A DNA stretch of 45,348 nucleotides from Deltaproteobacteria bacterium SM23_61. GTDB taxonomy: Bacteria > Desulfobacterota > SM23-61. The first letter of the stretch is position 1, and each line of letters opens with the position of its first letter. The position numbers were made by a program, and so were the translations under genes. Shown here piece by piece: positions 3,249-38,550 of the stretch. The stretch is taken from positions 1 through 45,348 of the forward strand of contig LJUR01000019.1 of NCBI GenBank assembly GCA_001304105.1, read 5' to 3'. The notes below the pieces were generated by a model. It ran no database searches and had not been told where the DNA came from. It worked only from the letters and a program-made list of their open reading frames with translations.

Positions 3249-4337
3249 ATGGCACCGTATCGAATCGTTGTATTGCCCGGGGACGGGGTGGGCCCGGAGG
3301 TCATTGCCGAGGGGCTAAAGGCCATCCGGGCCGCCATGGAAGGAGTGTCCCTGGAGGCCCAGTTTATTGAACTGGAGATCGGCGCCGCCCGCTATCGGAG
3401 GACGGGCGCGGCCTTTGGGCAGGAAGACATCGAAAAAGTACGCCAGGCGGATGCCGTTTTCTTCGGGGCCGTGGGCCTTCCCGATGTCCGCCTGCCGGAT
3501 GGCCGGGAAGTCCAGTCGGGGTACATTTACCGCCAGGACCTCGACCTCTATGCCAACATCCGGCCGGTGAAGCTGTACAAAGGGGTGGAATCCCCTCTGA
3601 AGAAAGCTGAGGAGAGGGGAATCGATTATGTGATCTTCCGGGAGAACACGGAGGGCCTTTACACCTTCGGCAAAGGCGGGTTCCGCATCGGGAAGGAAGC
3701 GGCGGTGAATCCCTTGATCATTTCCCGGAAAGGGACGGAGCGGATCGTGCGGGCCGCCTTCCAGATGGCCCGTCGGCGGAGAGGAGCCCCCGAAGACGGC
3801 GTGAAAAGGGTGACCTGTGTGGACAAATCAAACGTCGTGGAGGCGTATGCCTTCTTTGAAGAAGTTTTCCGTGAGGTGGCGGGGGAGTTTCCCGACATCC
3901 AGAGCGAGCATTACTACACGGATGCCATGACCGTCCTGATGGTCCAGAGGTCCTGGCATTTCGATGTGGTGGTTACGGAAAACATGTTCGGAGATATTCT
4001 TTCCGACCTGGGGGCGGGGACCATCGGCAGTCTCGGCCTGGCCCCATCGGCGGAGGTGGGAGACCATCACGGTCTCTTCCAGTCCATTCACGGAAGCGCC
4101 CCGGACATCGCCGGGAAAGGGATCGTCAATCCGATCGCCGCCATCCTCTCCGGCTCCATGATGTTCGACTGGCTGGGAGCCACGCATAGGGACCCGAAGG
4201 CTTCGGAGGTTGGGCGCCGGATCGAGGAGGCAGTGGAGACCGTTCTGGCCAAGGGCCGGGTAAAAACCCCCGACCTCGGCGGGAAGAACACCACTTCTCA
4301 GATGGGAGATGCCATCGTTGAGGAGATAAAGGCCTAG
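3249..4337 (+). CDS. Isocitrate/isopropylmalate/tartrate dehydrogenase-family protein
   Basis: MAPYRIVVLPGDGVGPEVIAEG..., RENTEGLY, TDAMTV, VVTENMFGDILSDLGAG, HGSAPDIAGKGIVNP. Confidence 0.92.
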   Translation: MAPYRIVVLPGDGVGPEVIAEGLKAIRAAMEGVSLEAQFIELEIGAARYRRTGAAFGQEDIEKVRQADAVFFGAVGLPDVRLPDGREVQSGYIYRQDLDLYANIRPVKLYKGVESPLKKAEERGIDYVIFRENTEGLYTFGKGGFRIGKEAAVNPLIISRKGTERIVRAAFQMARRRRGAPEDGVKRVTCVDKSNVVEAYAFFEEVFREVAGEFPDIQSEHYYTDAMTVLMVQRSWHFDVVVTENMFGDILSDLGAGTIGSLGLAPSAEVGDHHGLFQSIHGSAPDIAGKGIVNPIAAILSGSMMFDWLGATHRDPKASEVGRRIEEAVETVLAKGRVKTPDLGGKNTTSQMGDAIVEEIKA

Positions 4338-8221: not shown

Positions 8222-9461
8222 CGTCTTTCTTTTTCATGTACATCATCGTCCCGTCCTGGACCACCGCCACCTTGGCTGAACCGGGAAAGTCTTTTTCCAG
8301 GATGGCCAGGACTTCGGGCCAGGTCTTGACCATTATCGCGTCGTCCACGTTGCAGATGAGGTCCAGGCCTGTCCGGTCCGGGTAGGGGGCCAGGACGATC
8401 AGCTTCTTCATCAGCAGGTTGACGAAACCTTTGGGGCGGGGATTGAAGTGGCGCCCGCCATAGTCGCTCCCCCAGGCCCTCATCACATAATGGGGGGTCT
8501 GTCCCTCCGGGGCGTCGGAGATGAGAACGGCAACTCCTTCCTTGGGTTTGAGGAGGGTCAAGGCGAAGAGGAGGGCGATGGCCGACTCGTTGGCTTTGGC
8601 GTAGGCGTTGCAGACTGCCAGGTCATAGCCGGCGGAATGGGGAATCCCGTAATGCTCCTTCCCTTCCTCCGCGCCCGCCTGGTGGGTGGCTTTGAAGGGC
8701 CCGGCATAGAGGTTGGTGATCTCCCCCCGCCGGTTCACCAGGCAGTCGATCTTGAAATTCAGGCCCGCTGCATCCCCGGCGGCGTCGCACTCGGCGCGCA
8801 TGATGTTGTTCTCAAAATTGCCCAACCCGGTGCGCTTCGGGTCCCGGTGGAGCTGGTTGTGAAACTGGTTGATGCTCTCGATTCCGGCCAGCCCCGGGAG
8901 AATGAGCTTGGCACCTCCCCCGAACCCCACGTGGACGTGGGGAGTGATGCAGCCGATGGCGATCTTCAAGTCGCAGGACATGAACTCCCGGTTGAACCAG
9001 AGTTCCACCCCCGTGGGGGTCCTCCCCACCCGCACGGTGTTCTGGAAAGGATCGTGGTTGTACACCGGGTAATTCTCCACGATCTCCTCCCCCAATTTTT
9101 TACGGGCGTTGATCATGTCGTAGGCCCCGTGGGCTCCCAGGCCCCAGATGAACCGGATCTGGTCTTTCCTCATCCCGGCCCGGTGGAGGGTGGCAACCAC
9201 ATGGGGGGCGACCTCCTTGACCGGGGTCGGGCGGGTCATGTCGTCGAAAACGATGACCGCCTGCTTCTTGCCGCGGGCGAGATCTTCCAGGGTGGGTCCC
9301 TGAATCGGCTGATCGATTTTTCCCCGGATCTGCTGCGGGCCGATCGCCGGCTTTTCAAAACCGGGTGGGTTCAGGTTCTGAACCTCCCAACGGTCGAGCA
9401 AGGTCAGTTCCCATTCTTTATTCTCGTACCAGAGGCGGGAGGGAATCGGTATCCTATGCAT
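8217..9461 (-). CDS. LarA-family (nickel-pincer racemase-like, DUF2088) protein, second paralogue
   Basis: TPHVHVGFGGGAK-LILPGLAGIESINQFH keeps LarA K/H spacing; IWGLGAHGAYD corresponds to the GxHR(P) motif. Confidence 0.85.
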   Translation of the reverse strand: MHRIPIPSRLWYENKEWELTLLDRWEVQNLNPPGFEKPAIGPQQIRGKIDQPIQGPTLEDLARGKKQAVIVFDDMTRPTPVKEVAPHVVATLHRAGMRKDQIRFIWGLGAHGAYDMINARKKLGEEIVENYPVYNHDPFQNTVRVGRTPTGVELWFNREFMSCDLKIAIGCITPHVHVGFGGGAKLILPGLAGIESINQFHNQLHRDPKRTGLGNFENNIMRAECDAAGDAAGLNFKIDCLVNRRGEITNLYAGPFKATHQAGAEEGKEHYGIPHSAGYDLAVCNAYAKANESAIALLFALTLLKPKEGVAVLISDAPEGQTPHYVMRAWGSDYGGRHFNPRPKGFVNLLMKKLIVLAPYPDRTGLDLICNVDDAIMVKTWPEVLAILEKDFPGSAKVAVVQDGTMMYMKKKDA

Positions 9462-31452: not shown

Positions 31453-33636
31453 ATGAGCGTTTATGCCATCCCCGCAGCCCTAGCCTTTGCCATCAACCTG
31501 ACCCTCTGCCTGATTGTCTTCTTCGACAACCCCAGGGGGGTGGTAAACCGGGTCTTTACTCTCCTCATCCTTTCCTTTGTTGCCTGGAATGCCGGAGAGA
31601 TGATCATGGTCAACAGCGACCTCCAGTCCGTCGCCCTCGTGGGGGTCAAGGTCATCTTCACCGGCGTCTTTCTCTTCCCCGTCTTCTTCCTCCATTTTTC
31701 CTATGTCTTTCCCCAGAAGCTGACCCGCTTCTTCGACGGCTGGCGGAGCCTCATTCTCTACGCGGGACCCCTGGCCCTCTTGGTTCCCTTCATCCTTCTC
31801 CTGCAGGTGGACATCGGGCGGGTGGTGAAAATCGGCTCCATCTTTTATTATGTCTTCACTTTCCACGGCCCCCTGGAGTCCCAGCTATTGGCCCTGATCC
31901 TGGCCCTGATCGGCCTGGGGTACTTCACCTGGGGCGTGGTCAACTTCATCGTTTCCTACCGGCAGACCAAGGTCGCCCGCCAGCGGCTGCAGATCCTCTA
32001 CCTCCTGGTGGGAATCATCTCCATGTTCGTCATCGGGCTTTTCCTGCACGTGATGAACTATTTCTTCCACCTGGGCTATTCCTTCTTTTTCGTGGCCAGC
32101 CTGTATTCCCTCCTCATCAGCTTCTTCTTCGCCCTGGCCATCGTGAAATACCGCCTGGTGGACATCCACTTTATCATCCGGGGCGGGATCCTGTATTCGC
32201 TCCTTTCCGGTCTGGTCCTGGTGATCTACGTCCTCTTCATCAAAAACGTGTGCGATATCCTGGCCAGCAAACTGGAGACCACTTCGCTCCTGGTGGAAGC
32301 CACCATGGTACTGGTGCTGGTTTTCCTGCTGCGCCCGCTGGAGAGAAAAGTGGAAGAATTCATCGACCGTTTCTTCTACCGGGAAAGGTATATCTTCCGC
32401 TTGAAATTCTTCGAGTTCACCCGCACCCTCCTGAATCTTTTGGACCTTCAGACCCTGCTCGGGGCCACGGTCAACTTCCTCTCCCAGGCCCTTCTCCTGG
32501 ACCGGGTGGGGATCTGGATCCTGGAGGGCGATTCCGATGATTACCGCCTCCTTAGCCAGAAGGGGTTCCCCCGGGAGCGGTATTTTTCTACAGACAGTCC
32601 TTTCGTCACCTACCTGAAGAAGTCCGAAAGAGCGGTGGAACTGGAAACGGTAAAGAATTTTCGGACCCTCCGGGCCGAGGTCGGGGAAATGATCAATACC
32701 GGCCTTTCCCTGGTCCTTCCGCTGGAATGGGAGGAGGGTCTCCTGGGGTTCATCATGGTGGGGGAGAAGAAAGACGGGAAAAACTTCACCATCATGGAGA
32801 TCGAAGCCCTGGAGGCCCTGGCCCCGGCTGTGGCCATGGCCATCTCCCGGGCACGCCTCTACCAGGACCTGAAAAAAAAGGACTGGCAGATGATGCAGTC
32901 GGAGAAGCTTGTCGCCCTGGGAGAGATGGCCGCCTCTTTCGTCCACGGGATCCGGAATCCCCTGGGGATCATCCTGGGTTCGGCGGAGACACTCAAGAAA
33001 GGGGTTGCCCACCCGGTCCAGTCGGAGATGGTCCAGTTTATCGGCGAGGAGTCGGAGCGGATCAACCGCATGCTCACCAATTTTCTGGAATTCGCCAAAC
33101 CGAACCCCCCCGTCTTCCAGGAAGTGGACCTGAAGGACGTTTTGAACCGGACCCTGGACTGGATTTCCATTCCCGCGCGGAAGCAGCGGGTCGAGGTTCA
33201 GAGAGAATACCCGGGAGAAAAAGTCCTCATCCCCGTAGACCCCGAGCAGATCCGGGAGGCCCTGGTGAACCTGGAGATGAACGCCCTGGAAGCCATGCCC
33301 AAAGGGGGAACGCTGCGGATCGTCCTGAATCAGAAGGATAACCAGGATGTGACCATCCGCCTCAGCGACACGGGTGCCGGGATCCCCCCGGGGCTGGAAT
33401 CCAAGATTTTCGACCCCTTCTTCACCACCAAGGAAGGGGGAACGGGTCTGGGGCTCTCCATCGTCCACTCGGTGGTTAAAAACCACGGGGGAACGATCTC
33501 CGTCGCCAGCAACGACGGAGAGGGAACCACCTTCACCCTGAACCTGCCTTACCCCAGGGCCGTCATGGGGTGCTTCGGGCCGATCGGACCGGTGAAGAAC
33601 AGCAGGGGGCAGGGGGCAGGGTGCGGGGAGAGCTGA
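31453..33636 (+). CDS. Sensor histidine kinase with multi-TM (7TM-type) N-terminus and GAF-like region
   Basis: Hydrophobic N-terminus; EKLVALGEMAASFVHGIRNPLGIILG (H-box), LVNLEMNALEAM (N-box), DTGAGIPPGLESKIFDPFFTTKEGGTGLGLSIV. C-terminal tail runs into a repeat array. Confidence 0.92.
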   Translation: MSVYAIPAALAFAINLTLCLIVFFDNPRGVVNRVFTLLILSFVAWNAGEMIMVNSDLQSVALVGVKVIFTGVFLFPVFFLHFSYVFPQKLTRFFDGWRSLILYAGPLALLVPFILLLQVDIGRVVKIGSIFYYVFTFHGPLESQLLALILALIGLGYFTWGVVNFIVSYRQTKVARQRLQILYLLVGIISMFVIGLFLHVMNYFFHLGYSFFFVASLYSLLISFFFALAIVKYRLVDIHFIIRGGILYSLLSGLVLVIYVLFIKNVCDILASKLETTSLLVEATMVLVLVFLLRPLERKVEEFIDRFFYRERYIFRLKFFEFTRTLLNLLDLQTLLGATVNFLSQALLLDRVGIWILEGDSDDYRLLSQKGFPRERYFSTDSPFVTYLKKSERAVELETVKNFRTLRAEVGEMINTGLSLVLPLEWEEGLLGFIMVGEKKDGKNFTIMEIEALEALAPAVAMAISRARLYQDLKKKDWQMMQSEKLVALGEMAASFVHGIRNPLGIILGSAETLKKGVAHPVQSEMVQFIGEESERINRMLTNFLEFAKPNPPVFQEVDLKDVLNRTLDWISIPARKQRVEVQREYPGEKVLIPVDPEQIREALVNLEMNALEAMPKGGTLRIVLNQKDNQDVTIRLSDTGAGIPPGLESKIFDPFFTTKEGGTGLGLSIVHSVVKNHGGTISVASNDGEGTTFTLNLPYPRAVMGCFGPIGPVKNSRGQGAGCGES

Positions 33637-33840
33637 AAAACAGGGTGCAGGGTGCGGGGGGCAGGGGGCAGGGAAAGAAAAAAGAAAGGGTGTAGGGTGT
33701 AGGGTGTAGGGGGCAGGGAGCAAAGAGCAAAGAGCATAGAGCATGGAGAAATGACCAATGACCAATGACTAATGACTAATGACCTTTGGTCCATGACTAA
33801 TGACCAGTAAGCAATATAGGATTTGGAGTTGGGTGTAGGG
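33603..33840. repeat. Composite 7-bp-period array: GGGGGCA/GGGTGCA/GGGTGTA -> GAGCAAA/GAGCATA -> AATGACC/AATGACT
   Basis: agggggcagggggcagggtgcgg...agggtgtagggtgtaggg...agcaaagagcaaagagcatagagcatgg...aatgaccaatgaccaatgactaatgactaatgacc. Confidence 0.88.
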
Positions 33841-34012
33841 GCGACTGGACTTTGGCGAGATCAGTCGAGCCGCTGGTTGCCTGTTGGAAGGTCGTAGGGG
33901 CAATTCATGTCGCAGACTCGGCTCTACGAGAATCGCCCGTTTGAGAATAGTAGCTTCTAATTGTTTTTCTCTGTGTGCTCTGTGTCTCTGTGGTGAAATA
34001 TTTTGGGGGGTT

Positions 34013-35416: not shown

Positions 35417-35679
35417 TACAAAAAATTAATTTTAAAGTGCGAAGAAAAAGGTGTAAAGTGCGATTAAAACATTCGCACAACTAACCATTTGACATTTATT
35501 GATATTCTGTTTTGGCCCTCGACAGCCCCCTGGAATTCCCTCAAAGGCCGATCTTCTGGTATTTCAGATATAAATAAATCTTAATAAATCCAAATAGTTA
35601 AAAAATTTTTTCTTTGCTTCCCCTTGGCTCATTTTTTGCTGTAAAGCGGGTAAAAGAAATAAATGGGGAGGATACTACC

Positions 35680-37413
35680 ATGGCCATCGGAGAATTGATT
35701 CGCGGCCTGAGAAAAAAGACTGCGCTCAAAAATTTGGGAAAAGTCGAGCCTTACTACCCGCCGACCCAGAATGTACCCATCGGGCTTCCCAAGGAAGTAA
35801 ATAGTCTTTGCCCGGAGTGCGGAAAAACCATCCGGGCCGTCATTCTGGAGCGGGAAGGGAAAGTCTTCATGGAAAAAACCTGCCCGGATCACGGCTTCAT
35901 CCGGGACCTGGTCTACTCAGACGCCGAGCTTTACAAGAAGTCCGAGCGCTGGACCTATGAAGACGGGGACCGGATTCAGAACCCCCAGGTCACCGGCGGA
36001 AAGTCCTGCCCGAGGGATTGCGGCCTGTGCGACCAGCACATCAGCCCGCCGATCCTGGCCAACATTGACCTGACCAACCGCTGCAACATGCGCTGCCCCG
36101 TCTGCTTCGCCAACGCCAACGTGCAGGGGTATGTGTACGAGCCCACCTACGAGCAGGTGGTGGAGATGCTCTCCCGGTTGCACAACATCAAGCCCTTTTC
36201 CCCGCCGGCCATCCAGTTCTCGGGGGGAGAGCCGACCATTTATCCCCGGTTCCTGGACATCCTGAAGGGGGCCCGTTCCATGGGGTTCAGCCACCTGCAG
36301 ATCGCCACCAACGGAATCCGCATCGCCAAGGACCTGGATTTTGCCAAGAAGGCAAAAGAGGCCGGGCTTTACACCATGTACCTGCAGTTTGACGGGACCT
36401 CCGACGATGTCTATAAGAAAACCCGAGGTCTCTCCGGCCTCTGGGAACTGAAACAGCGAGCGGTGGAGAATGCCCGGGCCGCGGAACTGCGCATCGTCCT
36501 GGTACCCACCATCATCAAGACCATCAATGACGACCAGGTGGGGAAGATCCTCGAGTTCGCCGTGGCCAATTCCGATGTGATCAGCGGCATCAGCTATCAG
36601 CCCGTGGCCTTCACCGGAAGAATTTCCACCGCGGAGAGGGAGCAGCAGCGCTACACCCTTGCGGACCTGGCCCTGGACATCGAGGCCCAGACGGGACTTC
36701 TCAAGGCGCGGGAAGACTGGTATCCCCTGTCGGTGACTTCCCCCTTCTCCAAGCTCCTCAGCTCCATCTGGAAATACGATGTGGCCAAGATCACCTGCCA
36801 CTCGGACTGCGGGCTGGGCTCTTACATTTTCGTGAACCGGAAAACGGGGAGCGTGACTCCCATTACCCAGGCCATCGACATCGAGGGATTCACCTGGGAG
36901 CTGAACAAGCTGGTCAAACAGAAGATCTCCAACATCCGCGCTCTTACCGCCCTCACTGCCCAGCACCTGCTGAAGAAGTTCTTCCGGGAGGAACGGGTCA
37001 AGGACGGGTTGACCGCGGAGATCTGCCTGGAGCTCTTCCAGGGGGTCGTGGACATGGAAGCCCAGCGGCGGGTGGAGCTGATCTACTACTGGGACATGCT
37101 CCTGGTGGGGGGCATGCACTTCCAGGATGGATACAACTACAATGTGGACCGGGTGAAGCGGTGCTGCATCCACTACGCCGCCCCGAACGGGCGGATCTAT
37201 CCCTTCTGCACCTACAATTCAGGGCCGGTCTTCCGGGAAAAGATCGAACGGGAGTTTTCCATTCCCCTGGATGAGTGGCGGAAGCGGAACCGCTCGGAAG
37301 CGGAACCGCTCCCTGGAAGAGGCGGATTATTTCCTCTGCCGAACGTAAGTAGCAAATCAGGAAAGGAAAAGGGAGGCTGGTACCGCCTCCCTTTTTTTAT
37401 GCCCCGACCATAA
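35680..37413 (+). CDS. Radical SAM enzyme of MJ0619/COG1964 (Tes/tetraether-lipid-synthase-like) type; C-terminus apparently frameshifted
   Basis: CPECGKTIRAVILEREGKVFMEKTCPDHGFIRDLVYSDAELYKKSERW; CPRDCGLCDQH; LTNRCNMRCPVCFANA; QFSGGEPTIYP; CCIHYAAPNGRIYPFCTYN. 16-bp tandem duplication at 37280-37311. Confidence 0.85.
   Translation: MAIGELIRGLRKKTALKNLGKVEPYYPPTQNVPIGLPKEVNSLCPECGKTIRAVILEREGKVFMEKTCPDHGFIRDLVYSDAELYKKSERWTYEDGDRIQNPQVTGGKSCPRDCGLCDQHISPPILANIDLTNRCNMRCPVCFANANVQGYVYEPTYEQVVEMLSRLHNIKPFSPPAIQFSGGEPTIYPRFLDILKGARSMGFSHLQIATNGIRIAKDLDFAKKAKEAGLYTMYLQFDGTSDDVYKKTRGLSGLWELKQRAVENARAAELRIVLVPTIIKTINDDQVGKILEFAVANSDVISGISYQPVAFTGRISTAEREQQRYTLADLALDIEAQTGLLKAREDWYPLSVTSPFSKLLSSIWKYDVAKITCHSDCGLGSYIFVNRKTGSVTPITQAIDIEGFTWELNKLVKQKISNIRALTALTAQHLLKKFFREERVKDGLTAEICLELFQGVVDMEAQRRVELIYYWDMLLVGGMHFQDGYNYNVDRVKRCCIHYAAPNGRIYPFCTYNSGPVFREKIEREFSIPLDEWRKRNRSEAEPLPGRGGLFPLPNVSSKSGKEKGGWYRLPFFMPRP
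37280..37311 (+). repeat. Exact 16-bp tandem duplication (GGAAGCGGAACCGCTC x2) inside the radical SAM gene
   Basis: Read directly: cGGAAGCGGAACCGCTCGGAAGCGGAACCGCTCcctgg. Confidence 0.97.
37371..37398 (+). terminator. Rho-independent terminator, inside the annotated 3' end of the frameshifted ORF
   Basis: GGGAGGC-TGGTACC-GCCTCCC followed by TTTTTTT. Confidence 0.9.
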
Positions 37414-37416
37414 GAG

Positions 37417-37811
37417 GGTGCAGGGTGCTGGGGGCAGAAGGCAGGGTGTAGCGTGTAGGGTGTCGGGGGTAGGGGAAAGGAAGCAAAGAGCAAAGAGCAT
37501 AGAGCAAATAGCAAATGGCAAATAGCAAATAGAATTAATCATTGACCATTGACCAATGATCAATGGCCAATGATCAATGACCAATGATTAATGGCCAATG
37601 ACCAATGACCAGTGACCAATGACCAGAGAGCAGCAAACAAATAGCAGGTGAAGGATTACCGAGTAAATAGAAACGAGCAACCAGAAACCAGCAACCAGGA
37701 CGAGGAACGAATAACGAATAACGTGTAACGTATAACGAGTAACGTTTTCTTCCCCGGGACTCAGGACTAAGGACTAAGGACTTAGGATTCAGGATTCAGG
37801 ACTCAGGACTG
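37417..37811. repeat. ~395-bp composite array of at least seven different 7-bp unit families
   Basis: AGGGTGC -> GAGCAAA -> TAGCAAA -> TTGACCA/ATGATCA/ATGACCA -> CAACCAG -> AACGAAT -> AGGACTA/AGGATTC, each in 7-bp steps. Confidence 0.9.
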
Positions 37812-38173
37812 CCCTTCGGCGGTTCGGGCGGCGGCTGTGCAGGAGGATTGGATGAAGGGGTCCTGTAGTAGCGGCAGAGGAGAAAAATCCCGATGATCAC
37901 CAGAATGGTGGGCCAGACCAGGTCGCTCCAGGCTTCCGCTTCCGGGAAGAAGGCGATGACGAAATAAATGAGAAAGAGAAGGACTCCGATCCCGCCGACA
38001 ATCCGGGCGGCCAGACTGCGGGGGTTGAGGAGAAAAAGGGCGACCCCGACGGCCACCAGGATGAGGGGCCAGCTGGTGTAAATCTGCAGAATGAACAGCC
38101 GGTCCAGGATAAACAGGCATCCCACCGTGAGCAAAACCAGCCCGGCGATCAAGTGCCCTTTCTTTCCCCGCAT
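37796..38173 (-). CDS. Small membrane protein, DUF5668/LiaI-like
   Basis: GLVLLTVGCLFILDRLFIL...SWPLILVAVGVALFL...LVWPTILVIIGIFLLCRYY; stop codon supplied by a 7-bp repeat unit. Confidence 0.72.
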   Translation of the reverse strand: MRGKKGHLIAGLVLLTVGCLFILDRLFILQIYTSWPLILVAVGVALFLLNPRSLAARIVGGIGVLLFLIYFVIAFFPEAEAWSDLVWPTILVIIGIFLLCRYYRTPSSNPPAQPPPEPPKGSPES

Positions 38174-38550
38174 CCCATCCAACCTTTGGCTGTTCTCGTC
38201 TGTTCGAATTTTAGTGGCAGTTTTGATAAAGGCTGATGTTCAAATTTTTCTTTCCATTCACCTGCCTGAATAATACCTCATTTGTGGGGTTTCTTACAAT
38301 GACGAAAGAACCCCGGGGCAGAGGCTGCTAGGGGCGCACGCCGATGGCTACTTTCCTGGATGGGAAAAGGCGTGTTGCGGAAAAGAATCTATTGAATCCG
38401 CTGGCAGCGTAAACCTGCCGAAAATCCAGAACGGCCTGAGGCTGTCCACTTAAGTTCCGTTCAGGAGAAATTAAACCCAGTCAAAAATGTCCCGGAAATC
38501 CCGTAAAAGGCGCGACGTCAGGACCGGCCTGTTCACGTACTCGTTAGACC

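Follow-up and report, generated by a model that had tools for sequence, protein, structure and literature searches.

Composite heptanucleotide arrays with a shared block order at gene ends of a deltaproteobacterial genome

The window analysed here is a stretch of 45,348 nucleotides from Deltaproteobacteria bacterium SM23_61 (contig LJUR01000019.1). A repeat array of about 400 bp (37414-37820, the 37.4-kb array) occupies the spacer between a radical SAM gene with an HMPTM-type zinc ribbon (35614-37413, plus strand) and a convergent gene with a LiaF-like transmembrane domain (37796-38182, minus strand). A terminator-like hairpin with a T run, read from the sequence at about 37371-37397, immediately precedes the array. 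Near the end of the radical SAM gene, a 16-bp tandem duplication (37279-37311) shifts the frame relative to the congener G001, so that the ORF continues through the hairpin to a stop beside the array. Rfam and tRNA scans of the window gave no matches.

The array follows a strict 7-nt period. Its self-identity is 0.69 at lag 7 versus 0.19-0.29 at other short lags, and across the whole window 70% identity over 42-bp stretches is reached at lags 7 and 14 only. The first-pass annotation had described the spacer as filled almost entirely by seven heptad families. The periodicity and the order were borne out, but six main families describe the array better, because GAGCAAA and AGCAAAT form one drifting block. 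These families are, in order, A (AGGGTGC), B (AGAGCAA), C (AATGACC), D (AACCAGC), E (AACGAAT) and F (AGGACTC). The plus strand thus reads GGGTGCA/GGGTGTA, then AGAGCAA merging into AAATAGC, then TGACCAA, a degenerate stretch, AACCAGC, AACGAAT and finally AGGACTC/AGGATTC. In a first array list, from which some arrays are missing, about two positions of each family vary and five stay fixed.

All blocks lie on the plus strand. Block A (37414-37478) consists of AGGGTGC/AGGGTGT heptads, and 38 bp of it (about 37430-37467) are identical to a stretch of C192 in the same genome, here called G000 (3955-4103, minus strand). Block B (37479-37539), in the same register as block A, starts as AGAGCAA/AGAGCAT and drifts to AAATAGC. 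Block C (37540-37623) contains 12 units of A(A/T)TG(A/G)(C/T)C and is followed by the degenerate, weakly periodic stretch (37624-37672, lag-7 identity 48-52%). Block D (37673-37705, AACCAGC heptads) has 30 bp in common with C262, and block E (37706-37743) is built of AACGAAT/AACGTGT/AACGTAT heptads. Blocks A to E keep a single continuous 7-nt register, with a lag-7 identity of at least 0.48 at the junctions. Block F (37757-37810, AGGACTC/AGGATTC heptads) is out of register with block E, from which it is separated by 13 bp of unrelated sequence, and extends to the stop codon of the convergent LiaF-like gene.

A second composite array is present on the plus strand at 33602-33806. It reads A-B-C and so agrees in order and strand with the 37.4-kb array; the shared order had been claimed from the first reading of the sequence. 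The two loci are not a single assembly duplication, since their flanks differ and their sequence is shared only in part. The first heptads of the second array code for the C-terminal tail of a histidine kinase ORF up to its stop. The A heptads at 33602-33636 encode the tail SRGQGAGCGES, and a similar tail is found in the congener G002 (L095, about 8685-8715). A CTCTGTG(TG)-type element with a period of about 8 nt (33968-33992, also L094) recurs in spacers of the genus, and lag-8 regions also occur in G000.

Heptad arrays are abundant in this genome (4.24 Mb in 286 contigs, 88% complete). In 254 kb of its other contigs, 17 lag-7 regions were detected versus none in dinucleotide-resampled sequence, and BLAST gave 55 matches to the 37.4-kb array, the array itself counted. 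After de-duplication by contig position, our list holds 162 arrays: 128 from the sampled part of G000, 23 from the congener G002 and 11 from the congener G001. At least nine heptad families occur here, joined in composite arrays. Such arrays were found in all 7 genus and family mates searched and, patchily, across the rest of the phylum, one closed genome included. The empty resampled sequence and the presence in relatives, among them the closed genome, indicate that the arrays are neither chance nor an assembly fault. In that closed genome (G044), GGACTAA heptad arrays form part of a longer cassette, which is dispersed and whose non-heptad ends are shared (GACTAGAATTGACTAG ... GCACGTCTC; L195, L196, L197). 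A phage search gave no match, and a plasmid search gave three short matches.

The positions of 67 arrays in the window and in randomly taken contigs were compared with the calls of a simple codon-usage gene caller. In this set, drawn from the first list, 61 arrays are intergenic, and 5 are flanked by divergent genes. Where the neighbouring genes are co-directional, the array lies a median of 2 bp from the end of the upstream gene versus 64 bp from the next start.

The order of the blocks is not random across the genome, as the copying proposed in the first-pass annotation demanded. For the order A<B<C<E, 35 same-strand pairs are consistent and none reversed in G000, and the counts are 10 and 0 in G002; these 45 pairs come mostly from arrays found by BLAST with the 37.4-kb array, a search biased toward a shared order. 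Randomly taken contigs outside the window contain four composites (C8, C10, C13, C23), all four consistent with the order, and no new A/B/C/E composite was called in a further 200 kb of G000. D and E blocks are interleaved. The C block of C192, which is nearly palindromic, accounts for two opposite-strand calls, and an exception to the same-strand rule is found at C227 (L287, 2074-2240), where B-type heptads on the plus strand adjoin E heptads on the minus strand. The phase at each junction, determined on the first list, takes two adjacent values: 2 or 1 for A to B, 5 or 6 for B to C, and 0 or 6 for D to E.

Arrays also share irregular sequence. With the first list, 10 non-allelic pairs share at least 28 bp of imperfectly periodic sequence, versus 0.27 when the units are permuted within families. 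Under a stricter control on a corrected array set, in which the unit order was reversed inside blocks and local runs were kept, the numbers are 17 versus 4.5, and 8 versus 1 at 32 bp. One 23-mer without tandem structure, GCAGCAAACAA(A/G)TAGCAGGTGAA, is present in G000 only at 37630 and in C140. G002 carries it with a single mismatch, in the array that corresponds to the 33.6-kb one, and it had no match in the other genomes searched; a search for the exact irregular piece across all GTDB species likewise found none. Some of the shared stretches are so simple that slippage from the same units could have produced them. The best partner, in the first list, changes along the 37.4-kb array (C192, C15, the G002 array, C196, C75, C218), so this array is a mosaic of segments common with several others rather than one fixed cassette. 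The proposal that a composite cassette had been copied, instead of slippage at each locus, is thus upheld for the copying by the block order and by irregular sharing above two controls, but not for the single cassette. Duplication of whole loci was rejected as a cause, because only 6 short matches appeared when the flanks of 65 arrays (60 bp or longer) were compared with one another.

Comparison with sister species shows gain and replacement of blocks at counterpart sites. The flanking genes of G002 and G000 are mostly 84-92% identical, and the congener spacers outside arrays are too diverged to place exact ends, except for array starts at stop codons. The 37.4-kb site is free of heptads in G001; in G002 the same terminator is followed by block A, beside other repeats, and in G000 by A to F. 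At the 33.6-kb site the first heptads of G000 and G002 agree and the contents then diverge. C88 is empty in G001, and its arrays in G000 (A-B-D-E-I) and G002 (B first) both start at the stop codon. At C23, A heptads provide the stop in G000 and G002, and the G001 stop falls within C-type heptads. At C101, an A-B-E stretch in G000 lies within what is a C-E array in G002, and E-like units are also found ahead of C. Elsewhere the block structure is kept while the units differ (G-C-I at C218, B-C-E at C44).

Palindromes and inverted repeats of mobile elements were also searched for. Block C holds a 25-nt inverted repeat (84% complementary), the sole inverted repeat of the 37.4-kb array; no terminal inverted repeats of a MITE or other transposable element were found in this array, nor was the short GTAG-foot palindrome typical of the REP/BIME of RAYT transposases. 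Both G000 and G018 contain REP-like palindromes. Those with GTAG feet (GTAGGGGCGATTCATGAATCGCCCCTAC) lie at 33834, 33893, 41732, 45067 and 17238 of the window (also L179, L180, L186). In G018, another REP (TGTAGTTGCCCGAT..ATCGGGC) directly adjoins the ends of several heptad arrays.

Block order, strand, register and exact sharing argue for copying between arrays, and slippage explains the period of 7 and the number of units. Copying of composite pieces between arrays is thus supported, and independent slippage alone is not. We therefore favor, with a probability of roughly 0.55, slippage arrays of a known class that exchange blocks with one another through in-register template switching or gene conversion and have no demonstrated function. 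Slippage by 7 nt would add and remove units, and a strand end from one array could pair with a similar block elsewhere and copy onward, through ectopic gene conversion or template switching during replication. Because pairing would need agreement in strand and in 7-nt register, a newly placed downstream block would keep the strand, order and phase of its donor, and repeated exchanges would produce mosaics in which the order is conserved and the junctions stay in register. The arrays would be tolerated where the sequence is least constrained, beginning at the upstream gene's stop codon and running outward. We infer the exchange from draft assemblies, and we infer the template-switching route and the absence of function as well. 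Exchange does not explain how arrays arise at empty sites.

Replication slippage acting independently at each locus, with a biased choice of units, could give the same families and an apparent order. Heptads are over-represented among the longer simple repeats of many bacteria, for which a proposed cause is slippage tied to the length of the polymerase contact (PMC4692102), the two variable and five fixed positions of each family fit such a process, and the recurrence of the B and C families in a Pedobacter MAG, a member of another phylum, favors some convergence. However, this process fails to give exact irregular sharing, a single order and strand, and a near-constant junction phase, which makes it improbable as the whole explanation. 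We hold it equally doubtful that one ancestral composite element spread in a transposition-like manner and that the present arrays are copies of it which have decayed and lost internal parts in register. In favor of this, internal deletion would leave a total order in which some blocks are skipped, the G044 cassette has shared ends, and Y1 transposase matches were found in 17/17 array-bearing genomes versus 21/42 genomes without arrays. These last counts, however, ignore kinship, and REP-like palindromes can account for the Y1 enzymes. Moreover, the arrays lack terminal inverted repeats, flanks and ends differ between copies, and no target duplication was identified in congener spacers too diverged to place exact ends. 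Exchange is preferred over transposition and reverse transcription, because homologous pairing can act in one orientation only and tends to keep register, so that it would preserve the grammar, whereas no ends or duplications were found for transposition.

An enzyme that adds templated 7-nt units stepwise and in one direction, such as a reverse transcriptase or a telomerase-like enzyme, would account for units that shift gradually and in register along the array, and for the three states (none, A only, A to F) at one site in three species. The first-pass annotation had named sequential template-directed growth as an alternative to cassette copying, with a reverse transcriptase among the genes to be looked for. 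A search for RVT_1 (PF00078) found none in G000 (88% complete), G018, G024, G039, G055 or the closed G044, all of which bear arrays. A reverse transcriptase is thus not needed for the arrays, template-directed growth by such an enzyme is not supported, and growth of this kind is very unlikely, the more so as whole blocks elsewhere are replaced and not extended. Selection on the arrays as gene-end elements, either for stops in all frames within 21 nt or for G-quadruplexes or RNA signals at the 3-prime end, also seems quite unlikely. In its favor, 27 of the 39 arrays at gene 3-prime ends hold the stop codon, block A is on the coding strand in 9/9 co-directional cases, and block A fits the G4 pattern at several window sites. 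But without the gene's own stop the excess of sense-strand stops is no longer significant (20 versus 11, p = 0.15), the RNA fold of the array is marginal (z = -2.0), and presence and content vary between sister species.

The reading preferred here, exchange between slippage arrays, may have a wider form, in which in-register exchange maintains a fixed grammar (A, B, C, D/E, F) among the blocks throughout the genome, and the part of this order that a Bacteroidota genome shares, B before C with the same units, reflects transfer between phyla or a common directional process. We regard this form as rather unlikely. A GTDB search for the composite B-then-C pattern had the Pedobacter MAG as its sole match, with 39 matches to the window array. 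At targeted loci of this MAG, B precedes C in four arrays and follows it in none, and most of its arrays use other heptads, so that the sharing is suggestive only. The MAG (L114, L198-L212) is rich in heptad arrays, of which 58 were counted in 400 kb taken at random, and AGAGCAA, AATGACC and TATCAAG are among its families.

The dominance of seven-base repeats among long bacterial simple repeats is usually attributed to polymerase slippage alone. An ordered, in-register mosaic is a readable record of array growth and exchange, and comparison of close strains can separate slippage from copying. The arrays also show one way in which repeat DNA rewrites gene ends, in stop codons and C-terminal tails.

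The arrays have the features of intergenic heptanucleotide repeats: 7-nt head-to-tail units, many dispersed copies and a position near the sense-strand stop codon. They belong to this class (STRR/G-rich heptamer) and not to any published unit family; GGGAATC, GGGGAYT and TAACTGA are not among the families here. The class is known, and a fixed order with mosaic copying is not described in the papers found. The STRR heptanucleotides of heterocystous cyanobacteria form several families dispersed in the intergenic DNA of one genome. The present arrays resemble them in this, but the unit sequences differ, and no conserved composite order was found for STRR in the literature examined. Heptanucleotides of Calothrix are mentioned in PMC4692102. 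The TAACTGA direct repeats of Beggiatoaceae, cyanobacteria and Bacteroidetes (MacGregor 2015, PMC4679880) are likewise intergenic heptads common to distant phyla, and in Microcystis they are often mixed with other heptamers; they differ in that only one heptad is described, which in Beggiatoaceae is found mainly upstream of start codons, and neither a block order nor in-register junctions are reported for them. Geobacter metallireducens carries four-heptad elements (GGGACCG) in 49 places (PMC2700814), which are also dispersed tandem heptads in a delta-proteobacterium, but with a fixed four copies of one unit, within genes too. The G-rich heptameric repeats GGGAATC of Xanthomonas and GGGGAYT of Nostoc (Rehm et al. 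2015, PMC4692102) share the position near the stop codon, the sense strand and the rarity between divergent genes. For Xanthomonas and Nostoc one unit family per genome is described, whereas the genome studied here has at least nine, joined in composite arrays with a fixed order, a near-constant register and pieces common between loci.
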